From Lentimicrobium sp. L6 (GTDB lineage: Bacteria > Bacteroidota > Bacteroidia > Bacteroidales > UBA12170): a DNA stretch of 64,000 bases. Position 1 is the first letter of the stretch. Each line of letters begins with the position of its first letter. Position numbers and translations under genes: made by a program. The stretch is taken from positions 1 through 64,000 of the forward strand of contig NZ_JABKCA010000008.1 of the NCBI RefSeq assembly GCF_013166655.1, written 5' to 3'. This document shows, one piece after another, positions 14,177 to 61,911 of the stretch. Under the pieces are notes generated by a model. It did no database searches, had not been told where the DNA came from, and was given only the letters and a program-made list of their open reading frames with translations.

Positions 14177-14730
14177 GATTTAAATATTGACCCTCCAAGA
14201 CTCTTATTTTGAAAAACACACTTAATCAAGAAATACATACATGCATTATCCCTAGCATTAATGAAAAATGTGAGAGTTTTGGTAGACTTATTCATTAAGA
14301 TATGATATATTAATTTCAGGAATCTCTCAGAAAACAGCCTACCTTCGTATCGGTTTATACCGTTTTTTGATTTCAATTAGTAGCTTCTTTATTTTGCTGT
14401 ATAATAATGTATCCTACCACACCAGCAATTGAATTCTTATTGAGTTGCGGATATTTGGGCAGACCTTGTTTTGTTTAAAACAATAGTGAAAAGGGAGATT
14501 TTATAAAAGAACTCAACAACGAAAGTATATAGATTGGAAAAAATTCCCTGATGATAACCTTTATTATAAATTAAGCTGGACTATTTTGGGGCAAAATAAT
14601 TGAAAGCGTAATAAAAATCGCTTACCAGTCGGATAATTAGGAGTTCCCTAGTGGTTCATATTATTTACTATATTTACCCTATCAAATCAATGTAAACAAT
14701 GTATCCATTTATTTTTTAAAGCTATCATGG
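14177..14730. other. Intergenic region, no gene recognised
   Basis: About 550 bp with stops in all frames. A short open stretch around 14490-14600 reads like decayed coding sequence (YIDWKKFPDDNLYYKLSW), but it has no start and matches nothing I know. No clear terminator after the glycosylphosphotransferase gene. Confidence 0.5.
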
Positions 14731-41155: not shown

Positions 41156-42532
41156 ATGCAATTACCTTACGCAGAACCATTTAAAATTAAAATGGTTGAA
41201 ACTATAAAAAGAAGTACACGCGAAGAACGTGAAAAGTGGATCAAAGACGCAAAATATAATTTATTCAATCTTAAAAGTGAACAGGTTTTTATTGACCTTT
41301 TAACTGATAGTGGTACTGGAGCTATGAGTGATAAACAGTGGTCAGAAATGATGATTGGTGATGAGAGTTATGCTGGTGCTAGCTCTTTCTATAAAATGAA
41401 AGCTGCCATCAAAAATATTTTAGGCTTCGATTATTTCTTACCAACACACCAAGGAAGAGCAGCTGAGAATGTATTATTTTCTGTTTTGGTAAAAGAAGGA
41501 AACATTATTCCTGGCAACAGCCATTTTGATACTACAAAAGGTCATATCGAATTTAGAAAGGCAAAGGCAGTAGATTGTACTATTGATGAAGCTTTTGATA
41601 CTACTGTACAACACGATTTTAAAGGAAATATAGACTTAGCCAAGTTGGAAAAAACTTTCAATGATTATCCTATGGCTCAGATTCCTATGGTTATTATTAC
41701 AGTAACATGTAATTCATCTGGAGGACAGCCTGTAAGCATGCAAAATATTAAAGATGTTCACGCCCTTTGTAAGAAATATGGAACACTAGTGATGTTTGAT
41801 TCTGCTCGTTTTGCTGAAAATGCATATTTCATCAAAACAAGAGAACCTGGTTATGCTGACAAAACTATCAAAGAGATTGTGAAGGAAATGTATACCTACG
41901 CTGATGCCATGACCATGAGTTCTAAAAAAGATGCCATTGTAAATATGGGAGGATTCATAGGATTTAAAGATGAAGATTTATATAAGCAAGCTAGTGTTTT
42001 TGGAATCATTTTTGAAGGCTATATTACATACGGAGGAATGTCGGGAAGAGATATGAATGCTTTAGCTCAAGGATTAGATGAAGGTACTGAGTTTCCGTTC
42101 TTAGAATCTAGAGTTGGACAAGTAGCCTATTTAGGTAGCAAGTTAAAAGAATATGGTATTCCTATTCAAGAACCATTTGGAGGGCATGCTATTTTTGTGG
42201 ATGCCAAAAGATTCCTTCCTGAATTGCCCAAAGAAGATTTCGTTGCTCAAACACTTGCAGTGGAATTGTATATAGAAGGTGGAGTAAGAGGAGTAGAGAT
42301 CGGAGCGATTTTAGCTGATAGAGATCCTATTACAAGAGAAAATAGATATCCTGAATTAGAGTTATTAAGATTAGCTATTCCTAGAAGAACTTATACCAAT
42401 AACCATATGGAATATATCGCAGCCGCTCTGAAGAATGTTTTCGATCGCCGCGAAGAAATCACTTCTGGCGTGAAAATCACTAAAGAAGCTCCAATCATGC
42501 GCCACTTTACTGTGGAATTGGAAAGACTCTAG
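41156..42532 (+). CDS. tnaA: Tryptophanase
   Basis: A 458-aa PLP enzyme splitting tryptophan to indole, pyruvate and ammonia. Motifs: IDLLTDSGTGAMSDKQW (near 48), PTHQGRAAEN (near 98), FDTTKGHIE (near 122), FDSARFAENAYFI (near 211) and the PLP Lys in MTMSSKKDAIVNMGG (near 258). The C-terminal GVEIGAILADRDP has EIG where tyrosine phenol-lyase has ERG with its substrate Arg, which separates the two; overall it closely follows the Bacteroides tryptophanases I know. Convergent with trpB, with a terminator between. Confidence 0.95.
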   Translation: MQLPYAEPFKIKMVETIKRSTREEREKWIKDAKYNLFNLKSEQVFIDLLTDSGTGAMSDKQWSEMMIGDESYAGASSFYKMKAAIKNILGFDYFLPTHQGRAAENVLFSVLVKEGNIIPGNSHFDTTKGHIEFRKAKAVDCTIDEAFDTTVQHDFKGNIDLAKLEKTFNDYPMAQIPMVIITVTCNSSGGQPVSMQNIKDVHALCKKYGTLVMFDSARFAENAYFIKTREPGYADKTIKEIVKEMYTYADAMTMSSKKDAIVNMGGFIGFKDEDLYKQASVFGIIFEGYITYGGMSGRDMNALAQGLDEGTEFPFLESRVGQVAYLGSKLKEYGIPIQEPFGGHAIFVDAKRFLPELPKEDFVAQTLAVELYIEGGVRGVEIGAILADRDPITRENRYPELELLRLAIPRRTYTNNHMEYIAAALKNVFDRREEITSGVKITKEAPIMRHFTVELERL

Positions 42533-42713: not shown

Positions 42714-43904
42714 CTACATCAAATCACGCTCCACATCTTTATCTCCACGACCCGAAAGATTGATCACACTCACCTGACCAGTTTTTCCTTTGAGTAGTTT
42801 AGCTGCAAGAGCAATAGCATGAGAGGATTCAATGGCAGGAATTATACCTTCTAATTTACTTAATAGTTTAAATCCTTCAATGGCTTCATCGTCGGTAACA
42901 ATATGATAATGAGCACGACCAGTATCTTTGAGTAAAGCATGTTGTGGGCTCACCCCGGGATAATCTAATCCTGCAGCAATGCTATGCGATGGGTATATCT
43001 CATCATTCTCATCAGTTAATGCATAGCTAAATGTTCCTTGAAATACGCCTGGTTTTCCGAGGCTAAGTGTAGCAGCCGTATCCCCTAATACTCCATTTCC
43101 TCCACCTTCTGCAGCATGAATGGCAACTTCACGGTCTTTTAAGAAATCACCGAAGAGTCCTATTGCGTTTGAGCCTCCTCCAATGCATGCAAATAGATTA
43201 TCTGGCAATCTTCCTTCTTTCTCAATAAACTGCTTTTTGGTTTCCTTACCAATCACCGATTGAAAAAAACCAACCATAGTAGGATAGGGATGGGGTCCAA
43301 CCTGCGACCCTAATAAATAAAATACATGTGGATTCTCAATATAATAACCTAAGGCTGCGTCAACTGCATCTTTCAATGTAGCTGTTCCTGATTCAGTTAA
43401 TACCATTTCAGCACCTAGAAGCTTTATTCTACTCACATTCATCTTTTGGCGCTCGGCATCTTTGGCACCCATAAATACCTTGCATTTCATACCGAATAAT
43501 GCAGCTGCAGTCGCGGTGGCTACACCATGTTGACCTGCACCTGTTTCCGCAACTATTTCAGTTGCCCCCATTCTTTTGGCTAGTAAAATCTGCCCAATTG
43601 TATTATTGATTTTATGCGAACCAGTATGATTTAAATCTTCTCTTTTTAAATATACCTTAGAACCAATATGTTGGCTCAAGCGATGGGCATAATATAGGGG
43701 AGAAGGTCTTCCCACAAAATTCTTCAAGTAATAGATATATTCTTGTTCGAAACTACTGTCTTTACTGTATTTCTCGAATTGCTCAGCCAACTCTAATAAT
43801 TTCCCCTCTAAAACAGGTGGTACAAACATTCCCCCATAATCTCCAAATTTACCATTAACTGATGCGAAATCTTGTTCTGTTTGTTTTGTTGTAATATTTT
43901 CCAT
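42714..43904 (-). CDS. trpB: Tryptophan synthase beta chain (stand-alone)
   Basis: A 396-aa PLP enzyme joining indole and serine into tryptophan. Motifs: GKFGDYGGMFVPP at the N-terminus, the PLP Lys in KREDLNHTGSHKINN (near 98), ETGAGQHGVATATA (near 120, catalytic Glu), CIGGGSNAIGLF (near 243) and the C-terminal NLSGRGDKDV. This is the classical TrpB1 type. No trpA or other trp gene is next to it; instead it faces tnaA. About 260 nt upstream lies a Trp-rich leader ORF with an intrinsic terminator in between, so it is almost certainly controlled by attenuation. Confidence 0.96.
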   Translation of the reverse strand: MENITTKQTEQDFASVNGKFGDYGGMFVPPVLEGKLLELAEQFEKYSKDSSFEQEYIYYLKNFVGRPSPLYYAHRLSQHIGSKVYLKREDLNHTGSHKINNTIGQILLAKRMGATEIVAETGAGQHGVATATAAALFGMKCKVFMGAKDAERQKMNVSRIKLLGAEMVLTESGTATLKDAVDAALGYYIENPHVFYLLGSQVGPHPYPTMVGFFQSVIGKETKKQFIEKEGRLPDNLFACIGGGSNAIGLFGDFLKDREVAIHAAEGGGNGVLGDTAATLSLGKPGVFQGTFSYALTDENDEIYPSHSIAAGLDYPGVSPQHALLKDTGRAHYHIVTDDEAIEGFKLLSKLEGIIPAIESSHAIALAAKLLKGKTGQVSVINLSGRGDKDVERDLM

Positions 43905-44051
43905 TTTAAGCTATATTTTTTGAATTAATCATTATTTTTTTTCGATAATTGGTTGTCTATTTAATGATAAACGGATGCCATCGAAATATGATTTTTTCTA
44001 TCCAAAAGGAGAATTTAGTTTTCATTTATTATAATTTAAAAATTAATGCAC

Positions 44052-44081
44052 AAAAAAAGCCGAAGGTTTTCACCTTCGGCT
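44052..44081 (-). terminator. Attenuator terminator in the trpB leader
   Basis: AGCCGAAGG/CCTTCGGCT perfect 9-bp stem with a 6-nt loop and a run of seven T in the minus direction. It lies 28 nt after the leader-ORF stop and about 150 nt before trpB. The stretch 44123-44132 (TTTCAATTCG on the minus strand) could pair with CGAAGGTGAAA of the stem and loop, a possible alternative fold. Confidence 0.9.
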
Positions 44082-44108
44082 GTATATTTTAAATATAGAT
44101 ATACTGGG

Positions 44109-44162
44109 TTACTTTCCTATTTCGAATTGAAATGAAAGCCACCACCAAAATCTATTATTCAT
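44109..44162 (-). CDS. trpL: trp leader peptide, 17 aa
   Basis: An ATG ORF reading MNNRFWWWLSFQFEIGK then TAA. Three consecutive TGG codons (44139-44147) in a 17-codon ORF, directly ahead of a perfect intrinsic terminator and an intact trpB, is the classical arrangement by which ribosome stalling at Trp codons prevents termination when charged tRNA-Trp is scarce. A TAGTTTTG -7 box lies 17 bp before the ATG. I see the parts directly; the mechanism is inferred from the well-known proteobacterial trp attenuator. Confidence 0.85.
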   Translation of the reverse strand: MNNRFWWWLSFQFEIGK

Positions 44163-44178
44163 CGCTATAATCATGTTA

Positions 44179-44186
44179 CAAAACTA
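44179..44186 (-). promoter_or_regulatory. -7 box TAGTTTTG for the trpL-trpB transcript
   Basis: Exact TAnnTTTG match, placing the transcript start about 10 nt before the leader ATG. Confidence 0.55.
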
Positions 44187-44382
44187 GTATTTATTTTTAT
44201 TTGGCAAATACTTTTTTTGATATTTATTCAAGTAAATTTATTATTTCTGAGCAATGTTATTGATAAACAATGCGTTGTGATTTTAAATTTTTTACTATAA
44301 AGATGAATAAGGAAGCCATTACTTTATGATATAATTTATACATTTGAGAAAAATATGACTCTAAGAATAAAACATCCTTATC

Positions 44383-45000
44383 ATGAAAAAATGCATTTTT
44401 CTAATCTTGACAGTAATTGTTTTCCTTCCTCAGGTTTTTGCCCAGTATGATGTTCAGACAAGGAATAATATATCTTGGAATTTAATAGATATGGGGTTAC
44501 AGCGTTTTACCATAGATTATGAACGAATGACTAAAAATGGAAATATGTCTGTAATTATTCCATTATCTTATCGTTTTGGTGAGATTCATCGTTCTGCGGA
44601 TGATTATAGTTATAACTATTCTCCAATTGGAGATTTAGATGATTTTAAAGATGAATCAGATTGGTATGTAGGATTTGGATTTATGTTTCACCCCATTGCT
44701 AAACCCACTAAAGTTAAATTCTTTTTCGGTCCTGAAATCAGGTTTGGTGGTGCTACCCATAGAAATGATTATTATTACTATGAGGAGTATGACTATATTT
44801 CATCAGATTTTTCTCCAAGTGAGGAAGTTCAAGAAATCAAATACGCCTATGCAGCTTTTTTAGTGGATGTAGGAATTAAATATTATCCCATCAAGCAATT
44901 GTTTATGGGTGTTAAGATAGGAGTTGGAGCCTATGGCAATCATGAGAATAGTATAAATGCAATTGTTTCTCCAGCGTTTAAAATGGGTTATAGCTTCTAA
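44383..45000 (+). CDS. Outer-membrane beta-barrel protein, 205 aa
   Basis: Signal peptide ending VFAQ (residue 21). The mature part alternates hydrophobic/polar strands: NISWNLIDMGLQRFTIDYER, GNMSVIIPLSYRFGE, DWYVGFGFMFHPIA, KVKFFFGPEIRFGG and a C-terminal MGYSF with terminal Phe, typical for an 8-stranded barrel inserted by BAM. It has acidic/Tyr-rich loops (YYYYEEYDY). The next gene is a paralogue with the same strand layout (NMSINIPFSIAIGE, YFVGPEVRV, RMGFRF). Function unknown; possibly a small structural or adhesion-type outer-membrane protein. Confidence 0.82.
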   Translation: MKKCIFLILTVIVFLPQVFAQYDVQTRNNISWNLIDMGLQRFTIDYERMTKNGNMSVIIPLSYRFGEIHRSADDYSYNYSPIGDLDDFKDESDWYVGFGFMFHPIAKPTKVKFFFGPEIRFGGATHRNDYYYYEEYDYISSDFSPSEEVQEIKYAYAAFLVDVGIKYYPIKQLFMGVKIGVGAYGNHENSINAIVSPAFKMGYSF

Positions 45001-45109
45001 ATTGAAATTATTACAAAGTCTTTAATAAATTTCTGATATTTGCTCAATCAAGCAACTCCAATATTTGATATTGGTCTATGTATTTATAAGAAACAAAAAA
45101 ATAAACAAT

Positions 45110-45691
45110 ATGAAAAAGTATTCTCTATTATTAATGATGGTTTTTTCAGTATTGAGCATTCATGCTCAGAAACACGATTCTGATAAAGAGCAGGATGAAG
45201 CTGCTTTTGGAAGAAATAATATCTCTATTATGTTATCAGATGTGGTATTAAAACGAGTAAGTTTCGAATATGAGCATATATTTGGAGATGAAGGAAATAT
45301 GTCGATCAATATTCCATTTTCAATTGCTATTGGTGAAGCCGATGATGTTTATGGAGACCAAGTGAATTGGTGGGGTGGTTTAGGTATGAAATTATATCCT
45401 ACAGGTCAAGGTAAAATTAGATATTTCGTGGGACCAGAAGTAAGAGTGATTTCAGCTCACTATGAAGGCATTGATTATTCTTATTATGACGGCTATACTG
45501 AAGAAAAAGATGTGAAAGAGGAATACATTCACACAGCTTTTTTACTGAATAATGGATTTATCTATGAGCCCACTAAAAACTTTATCTTTTCTGTGAATTT
45601 AGGAGTGGGTTTCATGTCGCGAGATCAAAAAACTGGTGATGGAGTGCAACCTATGGCCACACCAAGTGTTCGTATGGGTTTCCGATTCTAA
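45110..45691 (+). CDS. Outer-membrane beta-barrel protein, paralogue, 193 aa
   Basis: Start chosen at 45110 (MKKYSLLLMM), which gives a proper signal peptide ending IHAQ; the longer reading would add 15 residues before it. Strand pattern and key motifs match the upstream 205-aa protein (EDEGNMSINIP versus KNGNMSVIIP; GPEVRV versus GPEIRF), so the two arose by tandem duplication. C-terminal residue Phe. Only 9 bp separate it from apbE, suggesting co-transcription. Confidence 0.82.
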   Translation: MKKYSLLLMMVFSVLSIHAQKHDSDKEQDEAAFGRNNISIMLSDVVLKRVSFEYEHIFGDEGNMSINIPFSIAIGEADDVYGDQVNWWGGLGMKLYPTGQGKIRYFVGPEVRVISAHYEGIDYSYYDGYTEEKDVKEEYIHTAFLLNNGFIYEPTKNFIFSVNLGVGFMSRDQKTGDGVQPMATPSVRMGFRF

Positions 45692-55704: not shown

Positions 55705-57354
55705 TTATTTCCTTTTTTTTACACTTTTCAAAACCATAAGATTCATAGAATTCGGTTTAAATCCATGTATATCAGAGCTTATGAATCTTATTACTTCATC
55801 ATAAAACAGTGGAATGACTGATGCGTTTGCCATTATAATACTATCTAATACTCTGTAGGAATTGAATTTCTCATCAATATTTTGGTCAAAATTAAGCATT
55901 TTTAGCTTACGATCGTAGTCACCTAGATGAAAATGAGTATAGTTAGGTCCTTTGGGTGAGAATAATTGGCTATTGAATAATAAAAGATAATTTTCAGCAT
56001 CTGGGTAATCAGCAATCCAAGAAGCTCTGAAAAGGTTGGTTTTAGAGTTGGCCACCATCTCTCTTAAGGCTGCCCATTGATTGAGCTCAATATGTGTTTC
56101 GATTCCATATTGAGACCATTCATGCTGCAAATATTTACAAATATCAACCGATTTACTGGTGGCAGAAATACCAATTGCTGGAAATACTGAAATCCCTAAA
56201 TCATTTTTGGCTTGCTCAAATAATTCTCGAGCTTTTTGGGGTTGATAATCATAACCCTTGGCCCTAGGGTATTGGTTGGGCCATAATCCAGTTGGGATAA
56301 ATCCATATTCAGCAGCCTCCCCTATGTTCTTCTGAATGTACTTGAGCATTTTCTTTCTATCGATAGCATAGTTAAGCGCTTTTCTGAAAGCTAAACTTCT
56401 GAGAGGAGAGTTTTGCGTAATGGCTAAAGAAGTATCCATAAGAATGCCAATATACTCTGTATTAAGGTAGGGCGTTTTAAGCATTTGAAATTTCCCATGG
56501 TATTTGGGATTCAAATCTCCTGTACTTGTTATTAGTTCTTCACTTAATGCAGGAGATATTCCACTAATATAATCTATTTTACCTTGTAGAAAGAATAAAA
56601 ATTCAGATTGCTTGTCCACCAAGAAGCTCACATTTACTGCATCAAGAATGGGCAGTCCTTCCTCAAAATAATTTTCATTCTTGATCAATACCAATTTCAA
56701 GCCCTCCTCCCAATATTTAAACTGGAAGGGACCAGTTCCCACTGGATGGTTCCTAAATTCATCTTGATAATAATCAATAGCTTCAATGGGGATAACACTA
56801 CAATACTTGGTAGTCAACAGGGAAAGAAATGGTGAATAGGGTTCTTTCAATTTGATTTGTAAAGTAGAATCATTCAGTGCATGGAACCCATTTGAATTCC
56901 AAGTTTGGTCTACCTTATCAAAAATCCAGAGCCCTGGTGATGCAACCTTGGGATCCAAGACTCTTGAAAGAGAATATACAAAATCTTCCGCTAACACTCT
57001 CCTTCCTTCTATTTGCTCAAAGCATTCATTATCATGAAAATAGACTTCAGTATTCAAATAAAAGGTATAAAGTAAGAAGTCAGAGGAAATATTCCAGCTT
57101 TTGGCAATAGAAGGAATGGTCAACAAGTTGGAGTCAAGCTGAACAAGTCCATTATAGATTTGCTCGCAAACATTGATACAGGCTAAGTCTTTTGAGAAAA
57201 CCGGATCTAAACTTGCAAGCCCATTGGATTCATTATACTTAAATATACTTTTGTTCTCTTCAAGAGGATCTAGTCCGCATGAGACAAAAAAAATCAGGCC
57301 TAAAACATATAGGCCTGATTTTAGTTTAAACTTAAGATTTCTAATCCTCATCAT
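55705..57354 (-). CDS. ABC-type peptide-binding lipoprotein (SBP family 5)
   Basis: A 549-aa extracytoplasmic solute-binding protein of the DppA/OppA family. Start chosen at 57354 (MMRIRNLKFKL), giving a lipobox VSCG. Motifs: LDPVFSKDLA, VCEQIYNGLVQLD (near 60), EGRRVLAEDFVYSLSRVLDP (near 120), HPVGTGPFQF (near 203) and AFRKALNYAIDRKKML (near 325). Such proteins deliver oligopeptides to an ABC permease; no permease or ATPase genes adjoin it, so it is an orphan here. The 5' end overlaps the HNH gene by 14 bp and contains an intrinsic terminator within codons 12-24 (57286-57321). Confidence 0.9.
   Translation of the reverse strand: MMRIRNLKFKLKSGLYVLGLIFFVSCGLDPLEENKSIFKYNESNGLASLDPVFSKDLACINVCEQIYNGLVQLDSNLLTIPSIAKSWNISSDFLLYTFYLNTEVYFHDNECFEQIEGRRVLAEDFVYSLSRVLDPKVASPGLWIFDKVDQTWNSNGFHALNDSTLQIKLKEPYSPFLSLLTTKYCSVIPIEAIDYYQDEFRNHPVGTGPFQFKYWEEGLKLVLIKNENYFEEGLPILDAVNVSFLVDKQSEFLFFLQGKIDYISGISPALSEELITSTGDLNPKYHGKFQMLKTPYLNTEYIGILMDTSLAITQNSPLRSLAFRKALNYAIDRKKMLKYIQKNIGEAAEYGFIPTGLWPNQYPRAKGYDYQPQKARELFEQAKNDLGISVFPAIGISATSKSVDICKYLQHEWSQYGIETHIELNQWAALREMVANSKTNLFRASWIADYPDAENYLLLFNSQLFSPKGPNYTHFHLGDYDRKLKMLNFDQNIDEKFNSYRVLDSIIMANASVIPLFYDEVIRFISSDIHGFKPNSMNLMVLKSVKKRK
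57286..57321 (-). terminator. Intragenic intrinsic terminator in the SBP gene
   Basis: AAATCAGGCCTA/TAGGCCTGATTT perfect 12-bp stem, 7-nt loop and eight T in the minus direction. It is 20 bp after the HNH stop codon but inside the signal-peptide codons of the SBP gene (encoding SGLYVLGLIFF). Either it is the HNH terminator absorbed into the next gene or an attenuator controlled by translation. Confidence 0.85.
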
Positions 57355-57931
57355 CCTCAAGTACAACATGCGCCCAGTTTTGACCTTTGCGAATTCTGTT
57401 TAATTGAGTATGAGTAATTCCGAATTCCTTAGCCAATTGATAAAGTCTTACTTTACCACGCTTGATTTTCTTCTTTAAACGTAAAACATCAGCTTCCGTT
57501 AATTTAGAATTATTGATTCTACCTTTACGTGCAGCATGAGCAGCCATAACTCTAGGATTAGTCTGGTTATGTTCTGTCATTTGCATTCTGGTTACCCATT
57601 TCAGGTTTTTATAATAATTATTCCCTTTTTCGTGATCCAAGTGGATAACAAAATCATAGTCTTCATCAACTTTCTCACAGAAAGCATCAGCCACTAAACG
57701 GTGAACAATTTTTTTGATTTTATTATCCCAACCTTCGTTTGATTTAAACCACATGAAATATTTATATCCACGTACTGTAGATTGCTTCATGATTTTAAAA
57801 TCATCCATTTTGGGGTACCAATGGCGTAGTCTACCATAATTTGAAATTTCATAAATTTCATCTTCCTTTAGCCCTTCGAATTTGAGTCTTTTCCATACCT
57901 CAGGACCGTGTTCAAATTTTTCCTCAGTCAT
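57341..57931 (-). CDS. NUMOD4/HNH endonuclease-like protein with C-terminal HTH
   Basis: Start chosen at 57931 (MTEEKFEHGPEVW): the longer frame adds 16 residues with no support. The 196-aa protein has a NUMOD4 segment (EIYEISNYGRLRHW, near 26), an HNH region (IVHRLVADAF near 73, VIHLDHEKGNNYYKNLKWVT near 92), and a helix-turn-helix (LYQLAKEFGITHTQLNRIRKG, quoted in part, near 160). This is the layout of free-standing homing-endonuclease-like proteins. The HNH triad is at least partly kept (His and Asn of HLDHEKGNN). It is encoded singly, not inside an intron, which suggests domestication or a regulatory role; that is inference. -7 box TATATTTG at 58023-58030. Confidence 0.82.
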   Translation of the reverse strand: MTEEKFEHGPEVWKRLKFEGLKEDEIYEISNYGRLRHWYPKMDDFKIMKQSTVRGYKYFMWFKSNEGWDNKIKKIVHRLVADAFCEKVDEDYDFVIHLDHEKGNNYYKNLKWVTRMQMTEHNQTNPRVMAAHAARKGRINNSKLTEADVLRLKKKIKRGKVRLYQLAKEFGITHTQLNRIRKGQNWAHVVLEDDED

Positions 57932-58022
57932 AATATAAAATTTTAGTTGTACTTTCGCTTTTAGTAAACGTTTGAGCACAGGGAGAACAGATCTCCGTTT
58001 TTTGATGTAAGCACTAACGGAA

Positions 58023-58051: not shown

Positions 58052-58918
58052 ATGGATATTAAAGTTAAAACAGCACGGCTGAGTATTTTCTCGAATATTT
58101 TCCTAATTATTATTAAGGTTTTTGCTGGGTTTATGAGTGGATCAGTAAGTATTTTGTCTGAAGCTATACATAGTGGAATAGACTTAATTGCCTCAGCTAT
58201 TGCTTTTTTTGCCGTTAAAATTTCATCAAAAGCACCTGATAAAAGGCATCCTTATGGGCATGGTAAATTTGAAAATATTTCAGGTGTTATAGAAGGATTA
58301 TTAATATTTATTGCTGCATTCTGGATAATATTTGAAGCGGTACATAAGATAACACAGCCAAGTGAAGTTTCTTATTTTATACTTGCTGGAAGTGTGATGT
58401 TAATTTCTGCCACAGTTAACTTTTTTGTTAGCAGAAGGCTATATAAAGTGGCAAAAGATACTGATTCTATTGCTCTAGAAGCAGATGCCTTGCATTTAAA
58501 AACAGATGTATACTCCTCGCTTGGTGTTGCTGCTGGAATGCTATTTATCTGGCTAACAGGTTGGCATATATTCGACCCTATTTTCGCCATTATTGTCGCT
58601 CTTTTTATCATGAAAGAGTCCTTTGATTTGGTTAGCAATGCATTTAGTCCACTTCTTGATTCTCAAGTAAGCGAGGACGAATACCAACTTCTATATGATG
58701 AAATCCTTGAATTGACTTCTATGAAAAAGGTAAAGTTCACTAGATTACGAAGTCGGAAAAGTGGGCCAAGCCATATGATTGATTTTATTTTACTAGTTCC
58801 TCCTAATATGACGGTTATGGACTCGCATAAAATTTGTGACTCTATAGAAGACAAAATTCAAAAACTATATACTGAATCCGATATCTCGATACACGTTGAA
58901 CCACTGAAAATTAATTAA
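58052..58918 (+). CDS. Cation diffusion facilitator (CDF) transporter
   Basis: A 288-aa inner-membrane cation/proton antiporter exporting Zn2+, Fe2+ or Mn2+. Six membrane segments in the first 200 residues; metal-site HxxxD pairs are visible in SEAIHSGIDLIAS (helix 2, near 39) and ADALHLKTDVYSS (helix 5, near 150). KAPDKRHPYGHGKFEN is the conserved loop. The C-terminal 80 residues form the cytoplasmic ferredoxin-like domain (KFTRLRSRKSGPSHMIDFIL). The metal cannot be decided from sequence by eye. It ends one base into the ORF frame of the following gene, whose true start is later. Confidence 0.92.
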   Translation: MDIKVKTARLSIFSNIFLIIIKVFAGFMSGSVSILSEAIHSGIDLIASAIAFFAVKISSKAPDKRHPYGHGKFENISGVIEGLLIFIAAFWIIFEAVHKITQPSEVSYFILAGSVMLISATVNFFVSRRLYKVAKDTDSIALEADALHLKTDVYSSLGVAAGMLFIWLTGWHIFDPIFAIIVALFIMKESFDLVSNAFSPLLDSQVSEDEYQLLYDEILELTSMKKVKFTRLRSRKSGPSHMIDFILLVPPNMTVMDSHKICDSIEDKIQKLYTESDISIHVEPLKIN

Positions 58919-58959
58919 TGATATTTGAGTTAAAGAATTGTAATTTTCATTCTCCTTGG

Positions 58960-58967
58960 TATATTTG
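58960..58967 (+). promoter_or_regulatory. -7 box TATATTTG for the GH3 fusion gene
   Basis: Exact TAnnTTTG match followed by C, 16 bp before the ATG at 58984; it lies inside the possible longer ORF and so argues for the later start. Confidence 0.6.
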
Positions 58968-58983
58968 CATCAAATTATTATTT

Positions 58984-61911
58984 ATGAAAAAACTGTTGAT
59001 ATTAGCCTTATCGCTATTTTCTATTATACTTTCCTATTCTCAAACTACACCAAAACAACAATGGGTTGATTCTGTTTATCAATCATTAAATAATTCAGAA
59101 AGGTTTGGACAATTACTGATGATTAGAGCAAATCAGGAATCCAATAAGTATATCAAAAGTATAGATCAATATATTAAAGATTATAGTATTGGAGGAGTCT
59201 GCTTTTTTGCAGGTTATCCTGGTGAACAATTACAGCAAACTGAAGAATGGCAGAGAATAGCCAAAATACCATTGCTTATTGGTATAGATGGAGAATGGGG
59301 ATTAGGAATGCGCTTAAAAGAAACCATCTCCTACCCTTTTCAAATGACTTTAGGCTCAATTTATAATGACAGTTTAATATATGATATGGGTTATCAAATA
59401 GGATTAGAATGTAAGAGGATGGGTATCCATATGAATTTTGCTCCCGTAGTGGATATAAATAATAATCCAAACAATCCGGTGATTAACTCAAGAAGCTTTG
59501 GCGATCAACCCAAAAATGTAGCAACAAAAGCAAGCATGTATATGAGCGGTTTGCAGGATGCTGGAATTATAGCCACAGCAAAGCATTTTCCGGGACATGG
59601 TGATACTGGTACCGATTCTCATTATACTTTGCCTGTAGTATCTCATGACAAATCCCGCTTAGATTCTGTTGAATTATTTCCTTTTTATGAATTAATAGAA
59701 AATGGTTTAGGCGGGATTATGGTAGCTCATCTTTATGTTCCGGTATACGAAGCTGAAGAAAATGTAGCTTCTACTCTTTCAAAAAATATCATTACGGGCT
59801 TATTACGTGAGAATATGGGATTTGATGGATTAATAGTTACAGATGCCCTAGATATGAAAGGAGTCACTAAATATTTTCCTCCTGGAGAAATAGAAGTGAG
59901 AGCCCTTTTAGCTGGAAATGATATTTTATTATTGCCAGAGAATATTCCAGCGGCTATTGATGGCTTATTAGAAGCTTTGTCCTCAGGGAGAATTAGTAAA
60001 TCACTATTAGAACTCAGTTGCAAGAAAATATTGAGCTATAAGTACGATGCTGGACTGTATGAAAAACCTGAATTTGATTTCGATCACCTAATAGAAGATT
60101 TAAACACTCCAAAAGGATTGGCCCTAAAAGAAAAACTTCATGAGGAATCTATCACATTAATTACGAACCATGAAAATATTTTACCATTATCTTGTCAGAA
60201 ACCAGTGCAATTAGCTATAGTTAGTTATGGTTTTGAGGAGGGTAATACCTTTGAAAATACAGCATATAGATATAGTGATGCCAGCTATTTTTATCCTTCA
60301 AAAGCACTTACAAAAACTCAAAATGATTCCCTCTTCCAAATCCTCGAAAAATTTGAAACCATCATCTTTAATATTGGAAATACGACCATATTTCCTCAAC
60401 GTTCTTTTGGAATTACATCGGCAATGATGGAGTTGATTGAAAAGACGAATTCTGAAAAAACATGTATTATCAATCTTTTAGGAAGTCCTTTAGCTATTAA
60501 AAAGTTCTTTATTAATATATCAGATTATGAGGGTTTTATATTAGGTCACCAAGATAACAAGATGACTAGAAGCCTTAGTGCTCAAATGATTTTTGGTGCA
60601 TTATCGTTTAAAGGAAAGCTTCCTGTTCAAATTAATGAGAAATATCCTGCAGGTTTTGGGATTCAAACTGCAGAAAAAGGAATAATAAAATTTGGAAAAG
60701 CCGAGAATCAAGGTATTAACACTATTCAGCTAAATAAGAATATAGACAGTATCGTTAAAGCAGGAATTAATATGAAAGCTTTTCCGGGCTGTCAAATTGT
60801 AATAGCCAAAAATGGTTATATTATATTTCAAGAGAATTATGGATTTCAAACCTATGATTCATTAATAGCTGTCAATGGTGAAACCATTTACGATATTGCT
60901 TCTATCACCAAAGTCACTTCCAGTATTCCAAGTATTATGTATTTGCAGGATAAAAAAAAAGTCCACCCAGATACAGCCATTTCTAAATACTTGACGTTTT
61001 TAGAAAACACCAATAAGCAAAATCTAACATTCCGAAGCATCCTCAGTCATAATGCTCAATTAAAGTCTTGGATTCCATTCTATTGGTATAATGCCGATAG
61101 CACTGGATTATTAAACCACGAGGTTTTTCAAAATGAGCAAAGTGATGAATTTAAGACTCGTGTGGCAGAAAATCTTTATATCACATCTGAATATGCTTAT
61201 GAGATGTATGATACTATCAGTAATAGTGACTTAAGGAAAAGAAAAGGCTATAAATACAGTGACTTAGGCTATTATTGGGTTCCTAAAATTGTGGAACAAA
61301 ATTATAATATGCCTTTTGAAAACTTTGTTTATGAGCATTTCTATAAGCCTTTAAACCTAAATCATACCCGGTTTCATCCACGCCAATATTTTGACCTAGA
61401 GAAAATTGCTCCTACGGAAAACGATACCCTTTTTCGAAAGCAGATTATAAGAGGCGATGTTCACGATCCTGGAGCAGCCATGCTTGGTGGTGTTTGTGGT
61501 CATGCTGGGTTGTTTTCTAATGCTGAAGATATTGCTGTCATCTTTCAAATGTATTTGCAGAATGGGTATTATGGAGGAATCCAGTTTTTTGATACTACGA
61601 CGATAAATGAATATACCAGCTATCAGCATGATGGTATTGAGAACCGAAGAGCCATGGGTTTTGACAAGCCTTTTAAAAAATACGATGCCTATGGACCTGT
61701 CTGTGAGTCTGCTAGTTTGAGTAGTTTTGGTCACAGTGGTTTTACAGGAACTTATGTTTGGGCTGACCCAGAAGAGAATTTAGTTTATGTTTTTCTTTCC
61801 AATAGAGTTTATCCTAGAAGCGATAATTATAAAATTAGCAAATTCGATATTCGCACAAATATTCAACAAGCTATATATGATGCCATAATAAATCGTAACT
61901 TTGAAAAATAA
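58984..61911 (+). CDS. Glycoside hydrolase family 3 fused to a serine beta-lactamase-like hydrolase
   Basis: A 975-aa exported protein (signal peptide ending SYSQ). Residues 25-380 are a NagZ-type GH3 beta-N-acetylglucosaminidase: AKHFPGHGDTGTDSH with the general-acid His (near 211) and VTDALDMKGV with the nucleophile Asp (near 286). A GH3 C-terminal-like domain follows. Residues about 600-975 are a penicillin-binding/beta-lactamase fold with SITK (Ser near 639), a YSDLGY second motif and HSGFTG as the third. Both parts suggest muropeptide or peptidoglycan turnover outside the inner membrane. This fusion occurs in other Bacteroidota. Start placed after the promoter box. Followed by prohibitin after 20 bp. 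Confidence 0.92.
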   Translation: MKKLLILALSLFSIILSYSQTTPKQQWVDSVYQSLNNSERFGQLLMIRANQESNKYIKSIDQYIKDYSIGGVCFFAGYPGEQLQQTEEWQRIAKIPLLIGIDGEWGLGMRLKETISYPFQMTLGSIYNDSLIYDMGYQIGLECKRMGIHMNFAPVVDINNNPNNPVINSRSFGDQPKNVATKASMYMSGLQDAGIIATAKHFPGHGDTGTDSHYTLPVVSHDKSRLDSVELFPFYELIENGLGGIMVAHLYVPVYEAEENVASTLSKNIITGLLRENMGFDGLIVTDALDMKGVTKYFPPGEIEVRALLAGNDILLLPENIPAAIDGLLEALSSGRISKSLLELSCKKILSYKYDAGLYEKPEFDFDHLIEDLNTPKGLALKEKLHEESITLITNHENILPLSCQKPVQLAIVSYGFEEGNTFENTAYRYSDASYFYPSKALTKTQNDSLFQILEKFETIIFNIGNTTIFPQRSFGITSAMMELIEKTNSEKTCIINLLGSPLAIKKFFINISDYEGFILGHQDNKMTRSLSAQMIFGALSFKGKLPVQINEKYPAGFGIQTAEKGIIKFGKAENQGINTIQLNKNIDSIVKAGINMKAFPGCQIVIAKNGYIIFQENYGFQTYDSLIAVNGETIYDIASITKVTSSIPSIMYLQDKKKVHPDTAISKYLTFLENTNKQNLTFRSILSHNAQLKSWIPFYWYNADSTGLLNHEVFQNEQSDEFKTRVAENLYITSEYAYEMYDTISNSDLRKRKGYKYSDLGYYWVPKIVEQNYNMPFENFVYEHFYKPLNLNHTRFHPRQYFDLEKIAPTENDTLFRKQIIRGDVHDPGAAMLGGVCGHAGLFSNAEDIAVIFQMYLQNGYYGGIQFFDTTTINEYTSYQHDGIENRRAMGFDKPFKKYDAYGPVCESASLSSFGHSGFTGTYVWADPEENLVYVFLSNRVYPRSDNYKISKFDIRTNIQQAIYDAIINRNFEK

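Follow-up and report, generated by a model that had tools for sequence, protein, structure and literature searches.

The trpB gene described here lies on the minus strand of the window, the whole 64,000-nt stretch of Lentimicrobium sp. L6 DNA that was analyzed. In the direction of transcription it is preceded by a putative promoter, a short leader ORF with a run of Trp codons (uORF1), an intrinsic terminator, and a second micro-ORF (uORF2) (Table 1). The encoded protein scores 532.6 bits against the TIGR00263 trpB equivalog, passing the cut-off of 392.45, and 172.3 bits against the TrpB2 profile TIGR01415, which is under its cut-off of 518.85. The convergent neighbor, tnaA, reaches 868.7 bits against the tryptophanase equivalog NF053783 (cut-off 750). 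A first-pass annotation of this DNA had described a lone trpB with no other trp gene. Indeed, no other trp gene adjoins it, but the same genome carries another trpB on a different contig, as part of a complete trp operon (trpE, glutamine amidotransferase, trpD, trpC, trpF, trpB, and trpA, where names other than trpE, trpC, trpB, and trpA have been assigned by position and sequence appearance). The lone and the operon TrpB are 50% identical.

Two adjacent ORFs divergent from trpB (44383-45000 and 45065-45691, plus strand) encode similar-looking secreted or outer-membrane-like proteins with no NCBIfam match, and ORFs resembling this pair are found beside trpB in several members of the genus. Elsewhere in the window, inspection by eye suggests a 997-aa fusion of a glycoside hydrolase family 3 and a serine beta-lactamase-like domain (58918-61911, plus strand) and a free-standing NUMOD4/HNH endonuclease-like ORF (57341-57979, minus strand).

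Table 1. Features of the trpB locus, in window coordinates.
Feature	Coordinates	Strand	Basis
Putative Bacteroidota sigma-ABfr promoter: TTTG (44208-44205), 18 nt, TAGTTTTG (44186-44179)	44179..44208	-	direct reading
uORF1 (leader peptide 1): MIIAMNNRFWWWLSFQFEIGK, with UGGUGGUGG (44147-44139)	44109..44174	-	reading and homologous loci
Intrinsic terminator: AGCCGAAGGUGAAAACCUUCGGCU stem and T7	44051..44081	-	scan, alignment covariation, spacing
uORF2: MKTKFSFWIEKIIFRWHPFIIK, Trp codons 44004-44002 and 43980-43978 (W-x7-W, FRW core)	43957..44025	-	
trpB paralog, 396 aa, putative salvage-type lone tryptophan synthase beta chain	42714..43904	-	TIGR00263, tree, gene absences
tnaA, tryptophanase, convergent neighbor of trpB	41156..42532	+	NF053783 equivalog, gene order

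The Trp-codon leader and its terminator

The promoter box claimed earlier on the minus strand is present, with a TTTG element upstream of it. The promoter has been named after the sigma-ABfr consensus, and strict -7-like boxes occur 5' of 12 of 33 homologous leaders, where shuffles give an expectation of 2.9. Reading of uORF1 from the in-frame ATG at 44174 yields 21 codons with a stop ending at 44109, while the ATG at 44162 yields the 17 codons proposed previously. The three TGG codons of that proposal stand; its length is less favored, given that homologous leaders most commonly span 21 codons and carry the Trp run at codon 10, their stop typically lying 36 nt past the first Trp codon. The relatives thus suggest that 21 codons is the more likely length. 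Just a few bases separate the first ATG from the predicted start of transcription, and uORF1 may therefore be translated in an almost leaderless manner. The TGG run TGGTGGTGG has a single occurrence in the window, against 0.11 expected.

The terminator had been described as a perfect, GC-rich stem followed by seven T, and this is what is found. The stem (44081-44058) has 10 uninterrupted pairs, six of them G-C, with T7 directly after it. Two terminator-like sites are counted, a single hairpin read on each of the two strands, against 0.1 expected, and the 133-nt leader folds with z = -5.1 relative to shuffles.

The leader has been compared across 39 trpB loci of the lone-trpB clade, among which L029/L032/L033, L034/L035, and L036/L115 are near-duplicates. 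A Trp-run leader and a terminator are present in 34 of the 39, the terminator being imperfect in three. The scan detects a terminator in 31 loci, all with a WW or WWW leader (one WQW), and leaders of these types occur in 35 loci. In L003, L030, and L031 a WWW leader is paired with an imperfect hairpin, and L037 has a WW leader and no terminator. Neither element was detected in L107, L108, and L113, and L118 is truncated by a contig end. In an alignment of 26 sequences the terminator is the sole consensus structure, and seven of its 10 pairs show double-sided compensatory changes. The Trp run precedes the terminator by 65.1 +/- 5.8 nt in the 31 loci, and the intervening stretch folds more stably than its shuffles do (mean z -1.59). 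Little else of leader 1 is kept across loci. The two checks that had been suggested, conservation of the TGG run and hairpin in relatives and compensatory changes in the stem, thus both turn out in favor of a Trp-codon attenuator in front of trpB, with the leader and hairpin kept across the order. Rfam adds nothing relevant. Between 42600 and 45200 there is no match to the T-box model, nor to Trp_leader (RF00513) up to E = 10, a model built on other phyla; a BSnc120 match of 24 bits is far under the cut-off of 114.

A competing pairing with the terminator stem or loop had also been proposed. A pairing of UUUCA.UUCG with CGAA..UGAAA is present at -6.6 kcal/mol, but 31% of shuffles are equally good. 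Over the 31 loci, the leader segment pairs with the 5' arm of the terminator no better than by chance (mean z -0.10; by a separate measure, 0.515 versus 0.511 in shuffles), and this pairing, which a classical, mutually exclusive antiterminator would need, has been set aside on this ground. As a result, the way in which a stalled ribosome would block the terminator is drawn from analogy. Under a shortage of Trp-tRNA, the leading ribosome would stall on the UGG run, the terminator would not form, and RNA polymerase would go on to trpB. With plentiful Trp, the ribosome would get to the stop codon and transcription would end at the terminator.

The idea that attenuation is exceptional in the Bacteroidota finds no support. 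The trpE of the L6 genome (L068, on G000:C45, 5' of trpE at 14632) has two complete tandem attenuators, as does that of G002 (L069), in the order leader 1, terminator, leader 2, second terminator, trpE. Leader 1 reads MNNNMNINNWWLLDL and leader 2 reads MTTTMTISAKYWWRYSGIQT or MTRTMTNTAKFWWHNSGTRT. A third genome of the comparison, G009, has a single WWW attenuator at trpE. WW, WWW, or WRW leaders with a terminator also occur 5' of trpB in Bacteroides oleiciplenus, Coprobacter, and Prevotellaceae, and operons that begin with trpB in Bacteroides, Prevotella, and Coprobacter have a Trp attenuator. Judged from their leaders and terminators, these loci document Trp-codon attenuation as standard in the Bacteroidales. 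Earlier work has suggested attenuation by leader peptides in this phylum (PMC9723704, PMC7366714).

A second micro-ORF past the terminator

The micro-ORF uORF2 is a new element that the earlier description lacked. Its versions in relatives include MKNEILSWLQKVIFRWHR, MNQNIINWLKRVLFRWQR, MYVIEWWRNVIFRW, MTTKIFSWYKKTFFPWRS..., MNRYILKWLNEITRFW, and MQYIIRWFNKIDFLWRKS. The W-x7-W core occurs in 17 of the 31 terminator-bearing loci, where shuffles give 0.02, and in 21 of the 39 loci overall (L003, L030, L031, and L037 being outside the shuffle test), counts that are inflated by near-identical loci. The seven-residue gap between the Trp residues is fixed across 60-94% TrpB identity. The pN/pS of the core is 0.35, calculated from few substitutions in related pairs. 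The presence of uORF2 in both deep branches of the TrpB tree suggests that it is probably ancestral to the clade. There are exceptions to the pattern: L110 and L112, from one family, have APWWWRG in place of W-x7-W, and the first Trp is absent in L005-L008. At L117 (1375-2673), uORF2 and trpB share one unbroken reading frame, and uORF2 may be an N-terminal extension there.

A second Trp-dependent step at uORF2 is plausible from these patterns. On transcripts that read through the terminator, the W-x7-W(R) sequence would make ribosome progress Trp-dependent and thereby provide a second, translation-dependent step. Access of Rho to the C-rich spacer behind the uORF2 stop would be one possible route, for which the base composition gives a faint hint. 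A further reading, of fairly low probability, is that uORF2 is a new kind of Trp-responsive regulatory micropeptide, ancestral to the clade and acting through W-x7-W/FRW arrest or as a translation-coupled checkpoint, so that control would pass from the terminator to uORF2.

Two other readings of uORF2 have to be weighed. It is a real possibility that uORF2 is a degenerate second attenuator that has lost its terminator, or a ribosome "antenna" on a long 5' region, with leader 1 alone in charge of regulation. The complete second leader and second terminator at the trpE of the same genome agree with the former. A ribosome-bearing filler is plausible as well, since loci without uORF2 often have a short gap (five have just 29-40 nt from terminator to trpB). 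On the other hand, the purifying selection, the fixed W-x7-W spacing, and the occurrence in both deep branches argue against decay, and the distance from the uORF2 stop to trpB, 24-124 nt across loci, is mostly too long for simple re-initiation.

A rather doubtful reading is that uORF2 is a TnaC-like nascent-peptide arrest sequence that senses free tryptophan or indole through its own residues (W-x7-W, FRW/FPW-R) and tunes either trpB translation or Rho access to the spacer. It would account for the conservation of the non-Trp residues, which is unlike leader 1, and for the fixed Trp-Trp gap. Also in its favor, CGA encodes the Arg before the second Trp (43983-43978 in the window) in 15 of 19 cases, a count uncorrected for shared ancestry, although across the window CGA is a minority choice that makes up 58 of 625 Arg codons. 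The spacer past uORF2 is C-rich and G-poor as well, with a C/G of 2.6 versus 1.2 in control upstream regions, a difference dominated by few loci. However, a test of uORF2 for TnaC-type leaders found no TnaC motif, and the gene downstream is trpB rather than tnaA. APWWWRG resembles plain codon sensing, and the loci without the first Trp and the inflated counts further weaken this reading.

Searches for an RNA partner or a wider distribution of the motif gave little. No second terminator was seen past uORF2 in the lone-trpB loci. Pairing of the FRW codons with the message has a mean z of -0.47 downstream and -0.02 upstream, and only L034 and L035 stand out. In these two loci UUUCGAUGG of uORF2 and CCAUCGAAA near the start of trpB are perfect complements, perhaps by chance, since the complementarity is absent from other loci. 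In a class-wide pattern search, FRW matches outside the clade were chance-like, with neither trpB nor tnaA nearby, and they were discarded.

The lone trpB and its probable role in indole salvage

The lone TrpBs of some twenty Bacteroidales families form one monophyletic clade (support 100/99). In the genus, nearly all 11 genomes keep the lone trpB, while trpE and trpC are found together in three, and the other eight are without both, five of them being 94-99% complete. A search for trpA, trpC, and trpE failed to find them in most members of the genus. Outside the genus, IGPS (trpC) is present in three of 22 lone-trpB carriers and absent from 19, and the three are exactly those that also have an operon-type trpB. 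Genomes with only the operon-type trpB have IGPS in 12 of 14 cases. Because trpC is missing from most carriers, the lone trpB is best read as an indole salvage gene, making Trp from indole and serine under Trp-codon control.

The indole for such salvage or recapture could be, for example, that freed by tryptophanase. In the genus, tnaA is convergent with the adjacent trpB in L002-L006 and is present in 10 of 11 genomes; the exception, G009, is also without the lone trpB. Outside the genus, tnaA passes the cut-off in 20 of 22 carriers versus 16 of 28 non-carriers. This pairing is a modest association only, since tnaA is widespread among these bacteria in any case. By eye, no Trp-run leader ORF was seen upstream of the tnaA of the window.

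Taken together, these comparisons of sequences make it very probable that the second, trpA-less TrpB forms Trp out of indole and serine and that its expression is under a ribosome-mediated Trp attenuator. That the gene encodes an ordinary biosynthetic TrpB, isolated by accident and partnering the operon TrpA, is improbable: the genome does have trpA on another contig and the protein scores as a trpB equivalog, but the operon has its own trpB, most carriers in the clade are without trpC, and most genus members are without trpA and trpE. Least credible of all is an ordinary terminator of upstream transcription with a chance WWW ORF and a trpB promoter downstream of 44051, for which there is a weak sigma70-like match at 43959-43931 (minus strand) of a kind found near shuffle level, because the leader, spacing, and stem are kept in tens of loci and the upstream gene at 44383 points the other way, leaving nothing for the hairpin to terminate. 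On the salvage reading, Bacteroidales that have no Trp pathway can probably regenerate Trp from indole by means of this widespread TrpB, a point of relevance to how indole is exchanged in microbial communities.

Comparison with known systems

In the E. coli trpL system, tandem Trp codons lie ~60 nt before an intrinsic terminator with a Trp gene downstream. The lone-trpB leader resembles this proteobacterial attenuator (trpL, RF00513) in its Trp-codon leader, intrinsic terminator, and downstream Trp gene. It differs in its Bacteroidota promoter, near-leaderless uORF1, lack of a demonstrable antiterminator pairing, and lack of an Rfam match. Furthermore, a lone trpB rather than an operon is controlled, and beyond the terminator lies another conserved micro-ORF with Trp codons.

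Within the phylum, leader-peptide attenuators have been reported for amino-acid operons of Flavobacterium psychrophilum (PMC9723704) and unvalidated sORFs in long 5' UTRs for B. thetaiotaomicron (PMC7366714). The presumed principle is the same, but these are biosynthetic operons or unvalidated sORFs, and tryptophan is unmentioned in the main texts of both papers.

The proposed salvage has parallels elsewhere. In Chlamydia trachomatis trpRBA, trpB likewise salvages indole under Trp control where the upper pathway is lacking, but the control is by TrpR and YtgR, and the annotated TrpL has no Trp run and is doubted by the authors (PMC7755916). TrpB enzymes of Thermococcus and Bifidobacterium are known to use free indole (PMC11085991), and the conversion of free indole to Trp proposed here is like that of the Bifidobacterium TrpB and the Thermococcus kodakarensis TrpB2. 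Those enzymes are TrpC-fused or TrpB2-type, and the parts of PMC11085991 drawn on here describe no such leader.

Two short ORFs per leader are also found in Salmonella mgtCBR (PMC3641672) and in ermB with its two leader peptides (PMC8274638). The signals differ there, and the lone-trpB loci have a terminator for the first ORF only. The classical attenuation model gives no role for a conserved micro-ORF past the terminator. The lone-trpB leader is thus a known attenuation principle in a new setting, the putative salvage trpB of Bacteroidales, with uORF2 as an unfamiliar extra part.
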